Shown piece by piece: positions 13,699-19,370 of a DNA stretch of 64,000 nt. The first letter of the stretch is position 1, and each line of letters begins with the position of its first letter. The position numbers were made by a program, and so were the translations under genes. The notes below the pieces were generated by a model. It searched no databases. It was not told where the DNA came from and was given only the letters and a program-made list of their open reading frames with translations. The DNA lies in NCBI RefSeq assembly GCF_002563925.1, contig NZ_PDJD01000001.1:1618973-1682972 (forward strand), read 5' to 3'. The stretch is from Serinibacter salmoneus (lineage in GTDB: Bacteria; Actinomycetota; Actinomycetes; Actinomycetales; Beutenbergiaceae).

Positions 13699-13765
13699 GA
13701 GGCCATCCTCGCGGGGCAATGCGGGTGCGGCGGCACCCTTTGCGGAATTGGCAAGGAGCCTCACG

Positions 13766-13827
13766 CGCCGAACGATGGGTTGCGCGCGAATCCACCGCGT
13801 GACCTCGGCGCAGGAACACGCTCGGCA
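13766..13827. repeat. dispersed palindromic repeat, family 1, single copy
   Basis: Left arm CGCCGAACGATGGGTTGCGC, right arm GCGCAGGAACACGCTCGGC. It shares both arms with the array at 14841-15336 and the copy at 21461-21556. It lies in the divergent 232-bp gap before the aldolase gene; no other signal was seen there. Confidence 0.75.
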
Positions 13828-13930
13828 CCGTGGCGATGGGACGAACCGGAGCGCGCTCCGCTCCCCCTTGCGGCGGACCCGCGCGCGGCGCACAGTGGAG
13901 GGAGCCGACCGTCCAGGAGAGGACCCCGCC

Positions 13931-14840: not shown

Positions 14841-15336
14841 CCGCCCACTCGCCGAGCGATGGGTTGCGCACGATTCCCGCGCGCTACCTCTGCGCAACAG
14901 CACGCTCGACGAAGACGGTCCCTGCACAAGCGCACGCTCGGCGACGACAGCCCCGCGCAACAGCACGCTCGACGAACGGGCACCCCCGTGCCCGGGTAGC
15001 CCGGCGCCCGAGTAAGCCTGCGCAGCCCACCCGCCGAACGATGGGTTGCGCAGGGCTCGGGCGCGCTACCTCTGCGCAACAGCACGCTCGACGAACGGGC
15101 ACCCCCGTGCCCGGGTAGCCCGGCGCCCGAGTAAGCCTGCGCAGCCCACTCGCCGAACGATGGGTTGCGCAGGGCTCGGGCGCGCTACCTCTGCGCAACA
15201 GCACGCTCGACGAACGGGCACCCCCGTGCCCGGGTAGCCCGGCGCCCGAGTAAGCCTGCGCAGCCCACTCGCCGAGCGATGGGTTGCGCACGATTCCCGC
15301 GCGCTACCTCTGCGCAACAGCACGCTCGACGAACGG
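14841..15336. repeat. array of long palindromic repeats (family 1), 119-bp period
   Basis: Four full units share the left arm CCGA(A/G)CGATGGGTTGCGC (ATGGGTTGCG begins at 14859, 15041, 15160 and 15279) and the right arm GCGCAACAGCACGCTCGACGA. Within a unit the arms pair as an imperfect hairpin (CGAGCG and GTTGCGC paired, 4-base internal mismatch). Two extra right arms without left arms lie at ~14930-14975. The last three units repeat head to tail every 119 bp, separated by a spacer with its own hairpin CGGGCAC/GTGCCCG. The array fills the 554-bp gap between the convergent aldolase and primase genes, and no gene is seen in it. Resembles REP/BIME elements; not CRISPR. Confidence 0.9.
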
Positions 15337-17388: not shown

Positions 17389-18108
17389 TCACCCGGGCAG
17401 CGACCACTCCCACCCCTCGGCGCCACCCGGCTGATAGGCCACCGAGGCAGCGTCCAGGGCGTCCAGCACGACCAGTCCGCGGTAGGACTCACCGGGGCCG
17501 ATGAACGGCGGGAGCAGGTCGCTGTCCTCATAGCAGGACCAGGCGCTCGCCGAGGCCGAATCGGCCATCGGCGCACCCTCGGGGTCGTACGGCACGAATG
17601 CGTCCGCACCGAGTGGGAGGAGGATGTCCGCGGTCGCGACGTCCGCGAGGGACCCCTCGATCTCGGCGTCCATCTCCGCGCTGACGTCGAGCACGAGGAA
17701 GGCACCGGACTCGGGTGTGATGTCGCTGCCGAGACGACCGGGGCAGGAGGCGACTGCGGTGGCCTCGTGGAGCGTGATCTGGAACGCGGCGGACCCTGCG
17801 CCCGAGGCATCAAGCAGCATGGCGGACTCCCCGATCCGCTTGACCACGTTTCCTGCGGCGCTCGTGGGCAGCGGCGCGCCGGGTTCACGCTCGAGGTCCC
17901 CGGACACTCCTGTTGACTGGCTCTCCTCAGCGGCTGCCGGGTCCCCCAGGCTCGCGGGTGCGCTCACCTGCGCGCTCGCGGGCGGGCCGAGGTCGGGTCC
18001 GCTCGTGTTGTCCGCAATCGCGAGGCCGACGGCTCCGGTGAGGACGAATGCCCCCACCGTCCCGATCACGACTCGACGCGTCCGGCGTCTACCGGCGTCA
18101 ACGCTCAT
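17389..18108 (-). CDS. membrane-anchored/exported protein, DUF4352-like
   Basis: 239 residues. A basic N-terminus (AGRRRTRR) and one hydrophobic segment at ~13-32 make a signal anchor. A low-complexity Ala/Ser/Pro/Glu linker follows to ~80, then a beta-rich domain with a Cys pair (VASCPGRL and WSCYEDSD). The motif GAFLVLDVSAEMDAE and the order of strands resemble extracellular Ig-like DUF4352 domains, but the match is by eye. ATG 18108 is chosen over one two codons upstream because AGGAG lies 7 bases away. It sits 14 bp after the FG-GAP gene, probably in one transcript, so both may act at the cell surface. Confidence 0.7.
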   Translation of the reverse strand: MSVDAGRRRTRRVVIGTVGAFVLTGAVGLAIADNTSGPDLGPPASAQVSAPASLGDPAAAEESQSTGVSGDLEREPGAPLPTSAAGNVVKRIGESAMLLDASGAGSAAFQITLHEATAVASCPGRLGSDITPESGAFLVLDVSAEMDAEIEGSLADVATADILLPLGADAFVPYDPEGAPMADSASASAWSCYEDSDLLPPFIGPGESYRGLVVLDALDAASVAYQPGGAEGWEWSLPG

Positions 18109-18122
18109 GGCATCGCTCCTCA

Positions 18123-19370
18123 TCAGCCGCGCACCCAGTCCCCGGACGAGATGGCGTAGCCGCCCTGACGCAGCCAGGTCTGGGTCCGCGGGCCTGCCAG
18201 GTAGATCCAGGCGCTCACCCCCGACGCCGTGTCTCGGCGTACCCGCACGTACATCTGGTTGGTGGCCGGCTGGCTCGGGTCGTAGCGCTCCAGCCTGTCC
18301 ACGCGGTCGATCGTCGCAGCCGCTGTCGCCGGGTGCAGGTACTTCACCTCCGCAACGACCGAATGGTGCGCGGAGTCGTCCATCGCATACGGGAAGGTCC
18401 GATCTCGATGTCCCCACAGACTCAGTGACGGCATCCGTTCGGTGACGGACGTGGAGAAGGTCCCCGACATCACCCAGGCGTTCGGCTGACCGTCCCGCAG
18501 GGTTCCGTAGACCGCCATCACGTCACGGGGCTGTGGCGTGGGGGTATCCTCGGCGCGCCGAACCGCCAGGATGTCGCGCGAGCCGCCGTCCCACCGGCCG
18601 ACCAGCACGGCGTCGGTCGCCCTGCCGTAGTCCACGACGTGTTGCGCCGAGCCCGGGCCGGTGCGGTCGGTCTGGTAGAAGGTGCGGCCACGCCGCACCG
18701 CGAGCGTGTCGGCCCCGTCACCGTCCCAGTCACCCACGAACACCTCGTCGCTCGCATTCCCATAGGAATACACCTTCTGCGCCGACCCCGCCCCCGACCG
18801 ATTCGTGAAATAGAACGTCCGCCCACGCCGCACCGCGAGCGTGTCGATCCCGTCACCGTCCCAGTCACCCACGAACACCTCGTCGCTCGCATTCCCATAG
18901 GAATACACCTTCTGCGCCGACCCCGCCCCCGACCGATTCGTGAAATAGAACGTCCGCCCACGCCGCACCGCGAGCGTGTCGATCCCGTCACCGTCCCAGT
19001 CACCCACGAACACCTCGTCGCTCGCATTCCCATAGGAATACACCTTCTGCGCCGACCCTGCACCCGACCGATTCGTGAAATAGAACGTCCGCCCACGCCG
19101 CACCGCCAATGAGTCGCGACCGTCACCGTCCCAGTCACCCGACAGCATCCCGTCAGAAGCATTCCCGTAGGTGAAGGTGAAGTTGCCCCCGCCGGGCGCG
19201 ATGCCCCGCTGGATCACGTACCGGCCGTACCCTGCGACCTCGGCGCCCGCGGAGGCCGGCGCAAGGCAGCCGAAAACCCCCAGGGCGCTGACCAGCGCCG
19301 CGCCCAGGGCCACGCGCGCGGCGTGAACAACTCGAGGCCGCCGGGGCCTTGTGGGTGAGGTGGTGTGCAC
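18123..19370 (-). CDS. secreted FG-GAP/VCBS repeat protein with a gamma-glutamylcyclotransferase-like domain
   Basis: About 415 residues from GTG 19370, which has GGGGGA 6 bases upstream; ATG 19439 is an alternative. The signal peptide is Arg-rich, then hydrophobic, and ends at PASAGA (~42). Five 45-residue repeats follow with calcium-loop motifs DWDGDG(I/R/A)D and LAVRRGRTFY, plus a degraded sixth (RWDGGSRD). Such repeats fold as a beta-propeller. The C-terminal ~130 residues carry VYGTLRDGQPN, VDRLERYDP (Glu at the usual catalytic position) and ISSGDW, all cyclotransferase/AIG2-like signatures. Substrate and localisation are unknown; secretion is inferred. It is upstream of, and probably co-transcribed with, the DUF4352-like gene. 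Confidence 0.8.
   Translation of the reverse strand: MHTTSPTRPRRPRVVHAARVALGAALVSALGVFGCLAPASAGAEVAGYGRYVIQRGIAPGGGNFTFTYGNASDGMLSGDWDGDGRDSLAVRRGRTFYFTNRSGAGSAQKVYSYGNASDEVFVGDWDGDGIDTLAVRRGRTFYFTNRSGAGSAQKVYSYGNASDEVFVGDWDGDGIDTLAVRRGRTFYFTNRSGAGSAQKVYSYGNASDEVFVGDWDGDGADTLAVRRGRTFYQTDRTGPGSAQHVVDYGRATDAVLVGRWDGGSRDILAVRRAEDTPTPQPRDVMAVYGTLRDGQPNAWVMSGTFSTSVTERMPSLSLWGHRDRTFPYAMDDSAHHSVVAEVKYLHPATAAATIDRVDRLERYDPSQPATNQMYVRVRRDTASGVSAWIYLAGPRTQTWLRQGGYAISSGDWVRG
18719..19123. repeat. 135-bp tandem repeats encoding FG-GAP units
   Basis: Three near-identical 135-bp units (CATAGGAATA at 18761, 18896 and 19031). Almost no synonymous divergence suggests recent amplification or gene conversion. 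Copy number could vary between strains. Confidence 0.9.

Follow-up and report, generated by a model that had tools for sequence, protein, structure and literature searches.

A predicted exported γ-glutamylamine cyclotransferase-like protein and its conserved partner gene point to a cell-surface enzyme system in Serinibacter salmoneus and its relatives

What is known of γ-glutamyl cyclotransferases comes mainly from inside cells, where they serve the turnover of glutathione and isopeptides; one of them, γ-glutamylamine cyclotransferase (GGACT), acts on γ-glutamyl-ε-lysine. Here we describe a gene, P0001, on the minus strand of a 64,000-nucleotide stretch of the Serinibacter salmoneus genome (NZ_PDJD01000001.1, positions 1,618,973 to 1,682,972; this whole stretch is the window), in which a GGACT-like domain follows a probable signal peptide and a β-propeller. 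The gene lies beside a second one, P0002, whose homologues accompany nearly all exported GGACT proteins that we found, whatever their N-terminal module. A conserved pair with swapped surface anchors points to an undescribed cell-surface enzyme system. The features of the locus are as follows.

18123–19370, minus strand: P0001, gene of 415 aa for the predicted exported propeller–GGACT protein; start codon GTG at 19370, stop codon TGA at 18125–18123
19242–19370, minus strand: probable Sec signal peptide of P0001, residues 1 to about 43, assigned from the sequence
18540–19241, minus strand: β-propeller of P0001, WDGDG/FG-GAP-type 45-residue repeats, assigned from repeat spacing and structure matches
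18132–18515, minus strand: GGACT/AIG2-like γ-glutamyl cyclotransferase domain of P0001, residues 286–413, assigned by Pfam, structure model and profile
18288–18290, minus strand: Glu361 codon of P0001, aligning to catalytic Glu82 of human GGACT
17389–18108, minus strand: P0002, the partner gene, its product predicted to be exported or membrane-anchored and MPT63/DUF4352-like
17392–17868, minus strand: conserved domain of P0002, with two invariant cysteines and a C-terminal GWxW

The catalytic set of mammalian GGACT consists of Tyr7, Gly8, Thr9, Leu10, Ile50, Glu82, Tyr88, Tyr115 and Tyr143 (PMC2954230), and one of the GGACT structures, 3juc, is a 5-oxoproline complex. Residues 286–413 of P0001 match the Pfam family PF06094 GGACT (E = 5.1e-12; score 46.9 bits, cut-off 22.8), in agreement with a sequence-only reading of this stretch that had described a cyclotransferase-like domain at the C-terminus. 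An AlphaFold2 (AF2) model of the mature protein, made with a 15-row alignment (mean predicted local distance difference test score, pLDDT, 79.9), has a β-propeller followed by a compact α/β domain. The nearest structure to the modelled C-terminal domain is mouse GGACT (1vkb; Z 12.0 over 119 residues at 3.0 Å), with PH0828 (Z 11.8) and human GGACT (3jub; Z 11.7) close to it and with ChaC2 (Z 9.2) and GGCT (Z 8.9) as poorer matches. In the model, the domain is thus a cyclotransferase fold closest to GGACT, the fold on which the sequence-only reading had made its assignment depend. A single-sequence phmmer search of the PDB with this domain returned no convincing match; a domain profile recovered YtfP (5.5e-7) and human GGACT 3jub (3.6e-5). 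In the second of these matches Glu82 stands opposite the Glu of the query, and the profile alignment shows E. coli YtfP to be without a Glu at the catalytic position.

P0001 resembles mammalian GGACT (A2LD1) in its predicted fold, the Tyr-Gly-Thr-Leu loop, the catalytic Glu and two active-site Tyr residues, but it is only about 19 percent identical to that protein and differs from it in its predicted export, its surface module and its partner gene. Among the exported relatives the YG-L residues, the Glu and the two middle tyrosines of the catalytic set are invariant (28/28), and the Thr position is occupied by Thr or Ser. No counterpart of Tyr143 was identified. P0001 is best read as an active γ-glutamyl cyclotransferase, its catalysis being judged from these residues.

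Flaviflexus, Neoactinobaculum and Actinotignum also have repeat-plus-GGACT proteins, and because the architecture recurs in these genera it is not a chance arrangement. Searches covering the order, the phylum and four families showed that the exported GGACT proteins of the order span four families or more, namely the window's own (f1), f3, f6 and f13; f3, which includes the Flaviflexus, Neoactinobaculum and Actinotignum sequences, is probably Actinomycetaceae. The N-terminal modules of these proteins, whose labels were assigned partly by eye, are the WDGDG propeller, classical FG-GAP repeats, SLH x3, SLH plus SH3b, multiple SH3b, a GWAxDPDT domain and an unnamed tryptophan-rich repeat. In the GGACT-domain tree, the exported members make up one side of a branch with 99/96 support that was present in 99 percent of bootstraps, about nine changes of N-terminal module occur among them, and plain GGACTs of about 150 residues, those of f3 included, fall on the opposite side. 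The exported GGACTs are a clade of single origin. Plain bacterial GGACT/YtfP-like proteins (for example those of f21 genomes and L202–L207) share with P0001 the Pfam family and a C-terminal (S/G)GD(W/F) motif, but they have no signal peptide, surface module or partner (0/29) and lie across the 99/96 branch. The fusion had initially been taken as unusual; the architecture is real, but it represents one clade and a two-gene module, not an isolated odd fusion, and a chance or misannotated fusion is ruled out by its recurrence and by this clade. Plasmid- or phage-borne spread was also considered and rejected, as plasmid and phage collections held no match to the GGACT domain and the plasmid matches of P0001 involved its repeats only.

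No NCBIfam model names the exported GGACT proteins or the partner, none of the papers searched treats a secreted γ-glutamyl cyclotransferase with FG-GAP repeats, and among the titles and abstracts of a broader search none concerned this module. What appears to be undescribed is the exported clade together with a near-obligate partner; the enzyme family and each of the modules are already known.

The start codon of P0002 lies 15 bases past the stop codon of P0001, and an alternative ATG at 18123 overlaps P0001. Homologues of P0002 (E 1e-16 to 4e-33), several of which have a lipobox, adjoin the exported GGACT in Flaviflexus, Neoactinobaculum, Actinotignum and three further genomes (G012, G030 and G318). 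Apart from one locus truncated at a contig end, which was excluded, 27 of 28 exported GGACTs have the partner as a fusion or as a same-strand neighbour, compared with 0 of 29 plain ones (Fisher p about 2e-15, with shared ancestry ignored). In the held-out family f6, which was sampled a second time and had no part in forming this rule, the partner accompanied all of the SH3b-type exported GGACTs (17/17) and not the plain one (0/1). The partner domain is fused C-terminal to GGACT in L081/L082-type proteins from six genomes (hhalign probability 97.9, E 5e-13). The partner is often present in two tandem copies and lies upstream of GGACT in L211. In L227 (G972) the GGACT gene is decayed, with an internal stop codon, and the partner gene is still adjacent. 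P0002 is a near-obligate partner of the exported GGACT.

The AF2 model of P0002 (pLDDT 82) is most similar to MPT63 (Z 10.8), YxkC from a modelled YxkC–DacA complex (10.5), YjhA (9.9) and YcdA (9.2), and its predicted fold is MPT63/DUF4352-like, with an immunoglobulin-like (Ig-like) character. By sequence, P0002 has no significant match to PF11611 or to PDB chains: the Pfam DUF4352 model (PF11611) gave 0 matches to it and a best E of 0.067, which was reached in two of nine relatives. The DUF4352-like label that the neighbour had been given from its letters applies to the fold and not to a significant Pfam match. P0002 shares with the MPT63/DUF4352-type proteins (MPT63, YjhA, YcdA and YxkC) this predicted fold (Z 9.2–10.8) and an exported or lipoprotein nature, but differs from them in the lack of sequence matches just given and in that its subgroup adjoins GGACT. 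DacA is a D,D-carboxypeptidase, so that the YxkC–DacA model shows an MPT63-like fold touching a wall enzyme. A widespread sister group of the partner (L161–L176), consisting of RGNLVKxIGxxAG... EWSY lipoproteins, occurs without GGACT in varied neighbourhoods, some of them restriction-modification-like.

P0001 occupies the open reading frame (ORF) at 18123–19370 on the minus strand from which the sequence-only reading had started, and it is the sole GGACT of the 3.27 Mb genome. A scan for promoters and terminators found none. The N-terminus, for which a signal peptide had been proposed, is of the Sec type (RRPRVVHAARVALGAALVSALGVFGCLAPASAGA), with an RR-rich n-region, a hydrophobic core and an ASAGA end, and its sequence contains no good lipobox. 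Signal peptides are also found at the N-termini of P0001 homologues. Export of P0001 is therefore supported both by its own signal peptide and by the homologues in which a signal peptide precedes an SLH, SH3b or propeller module joined to GGACT, and the protein is predicted to be exported.

The repeats of P0001 comprise four intact 45-residue units and a degenerate fifth (GRWDGGSRD) at a spacing of exactly 45 residues. With the fifth unit degenerate, the count of five first given is a little high. Four units carry the Ca-loop motif DWDGDG. Not one of the 135 bases differs between units 2 and 3 (window 18736–19035), which indicates recent duplication or homogenisation (gene conversion) in the repeat array. 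The Pfam model FG-GAP_3 matched three stretches of P0001 at 24.5 bits, under its cut-off of 26.9, with relatives such as L082 above it; repeated DxDGDG Ca-loop blades together with the modelled propeller fold place the module in the FG-GAP/VCBS type, with predicted calcium binding. The nearest solved structure to the P0001 propeller is the C-terminal propeller of UmbA4 with teichuronic acid (9oee; Z 14.0 over 224 residues, 23 percent identity); next comes PVL, a fungal lectin that binds GlcNAc. A phmmer search of the PDB with the propeller gave no sequence match, and for this reason the likeness to UmbA4 gives a lead on the fold but does not prove that glycan is bound. In UmbA4 itself, the propeller binds to target cells through a teichuronic-acid polymer of their wall (PMC13274773). 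The UmbA lectin propeller of umbrella toxin particles is thus the best structural match and shares conserved Ca-loop repeats with P0001, but UmbA has a trypsin-like domain N-terminal to its lectin, whereas by Pfam P0001 has none and carries a C-terminal GGACT instead. The P0001 propeller is predicted from the model to be a Ca-loop lectin-type module.

The same propeller is carried by five other exported ORFs of this genome, two with VanY D,D-carboxypeptidase domains and one with a weak SLT-like domain, and in other genomes by Amidase_2, NlpC/P60 and SpoIID proteins; its most plausible role is general retention at the cell surface. Among the propeller proteins of this genome, the one encoded at L104 8084–9394 (G000 around 2148083–2149393), whose gene adjoins that of the SLT-like propeller protein, has a C-terminal domain (GDGTHLVGADIPAGVYRS...) that has no Pfam match and apparently consists of two similar halves.

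Taken as a whole, P0001 is probably an exported γ-glutamyl cyclotransferase retained at the cell surface and accompanied by an envelope partner of its own, the likeliest guess at its substrate being a γ-glutamyl amine of the wall. P0001 would be secreted by the Sec route and retained by its Ca-loop β-propeller, which would act as a lectin-type binder of wall glycan, and SLH, SH3b or other modules would serve the same retention role in relatives. By GGACT chemistry, the free α-amino group of a γ-glutamyl amide would attack the γ-carbonyl, with Glu361 as the putative general acid/base, and the products would be 5-oxoproline and the free amine. The MPT63/DUF4352-like partner, fused in cis in some lineages, may dock on the enzyme or may present or control its substrate. 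We infer both the surface retention of P0001 and its physical contact with the partner.

In A4 and A5 walls, Glu can attach to the side chain of Lys or Orn. The wall of Actinotignum schaalii is of the A5α Lys-Lys-D-Glu type (PMC5720513), and a comparison of Cellulomonas and Actinotalea includes Orn-D-Glu and Orn-D-Ser-D-Glu types (PMC8878594). The bridge Glu is presumably γ-linked in these species, and with a γ-linkage and a free α-amino group it would be a chemically fitting GGACT substrate; the Glu-bridge wall types of Actinotignum, Cellulomonas and Actinotalea fit this idea. The SLH and SH3b modules of relatives and the sharing of the propeller with VanY and other wall enzymes point indirectly to a role at the wall. 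As a tentative guess, the substrate is a wall γ-glutamyl-amine end, above all the γ-Glu-Lys/Orn bridge end of A4/A5 peptidoglycan, where the bridge-end Glu would be processed before cross-linking or after bridge cleavage. Alternative substrates are extracellular γ-glutamyl peptides, which would be scavenged, or a substituent of a wall glycopolymer, which would be trimmed. A doubtful extension of the peptidoglycan idea is a new class of wall editing, in which GGACT and its MPT63-like partner would strip γ-linked Glu from Lys/Orn bridge side chains as 5-oxoproline and so cap cross-link sites irreversibly and non-hydrolytically.

Several observations weigh against a surface enzyme that acts with its partner on the wall. 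Characterised GGACT acts on L-γ-glutamyl-ε-lysine and many of these walls carry D-Glu. The propeller is also found on subtilase, metallophosphatase, 5'-nucleotidase and amylase proteins, and because of this it marks the surface and not peptidoglycan. The exported form is patchy: of the 396 genomes sampled from the order 7 have it, whereas Glu-bridged walls are common in that order. One exported GGACT (L177/L084, G119) is a true exception with no detectable partner.

The occurrence of the propeller on degradative exoenzymes (subtilase, phosphatase and amylase) would suit a nutrient scavenger, a surface enzyme that releases 5-oxoproline and amine from extracellular γ-glutamyl peptides such as glutathione, γ-Glu amino acids or the γ-Glu-ε-Lys of host or plant proteins, with the partner as a binding lipoprotein. 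GGACT-family chemistry does target small γ-glutamyl compounds (PMC2954230), and several relatives have a lipoprotein as the partner. However, SLH and SH3b modules tether proteins to the cell's own wall, the neighbourhoods compared have no uptake or oxoprolinase gene in common, and the partner fold is unlike that of solute-binding proteins, which makes scavenging unlikely. If the GGACT domain only bound its ligand, P0001 as a whole would be an adhesin at the surface or a structural component of the wall, held together with its partner, as the existence of AIG2-like proteins without the catalytic Glu (E. coli YtfP) and the Ig-like partner would allow, but without catalysis one would not readily expect Tyr-Gly-x-Leu, Glu, Tyr and Tyr to be invariant across 28 diverse exported members, and we regard this as quite improbable. 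A secreted, polymorphic-toxin-like antibacterial effector with an exported immunity protein is hardly credible: swapped N-terminal modules before one C-terminal domain, a small exported gene alongside and the targeting lectin of umbrella toxins as the nearest solved propeller recall such systems, but the partner is cis-fused in one lineage, upstream in L211 and often in two tandem copies, the C-terminal domains form a single clade with slow divergence and not a set of swapped toxins, and P0001 lacks a trypsin-like domain; this reading, and with it a role in defence, was rejected on the partner's cis fusion and the lack of any PADLOC match.

If the probable reading of a surface-held cyclotransferase is true, this chemistry would extend to the Gram-positive envelope in a whole exported clade that has wall-binding modules and a conserved partner, and an MPT63/DUF4352-type protein would gain an assignable function. 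The enzyme–partner pair occurs both in harmless laboratory actinobacteria and in genera associated with humans, Actinotignum among them.

An all-against-all comparison of 11 neighbourhoods was searched for a third conserved gene, and only the GGACT–partner pair recurred in at least three of them. Surface-polysaccharide genes lie by the pairs of some relatives, namely a UDP-glucose dehydrogenase with glycosyltransferases (L005), a nucleotidyl transferase (L233) and a polysaccharide pyruvyl transferase (L235); none was found beside the P0001/P0002 pair in the window. Elsewhere in the window, near dnaG, an intergenic tandem array at 14843–15333 consists of 119-bp repeats containing CGARCGATGGGTTGCGC, with one diverged copy at 13759–13829. 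The 17-mer CGARCGATGGGTTGCGC occurs 13 times in the genome, 11 times on the plus strand and twice on the minus strand, against 0 occurrences of the reversed control.
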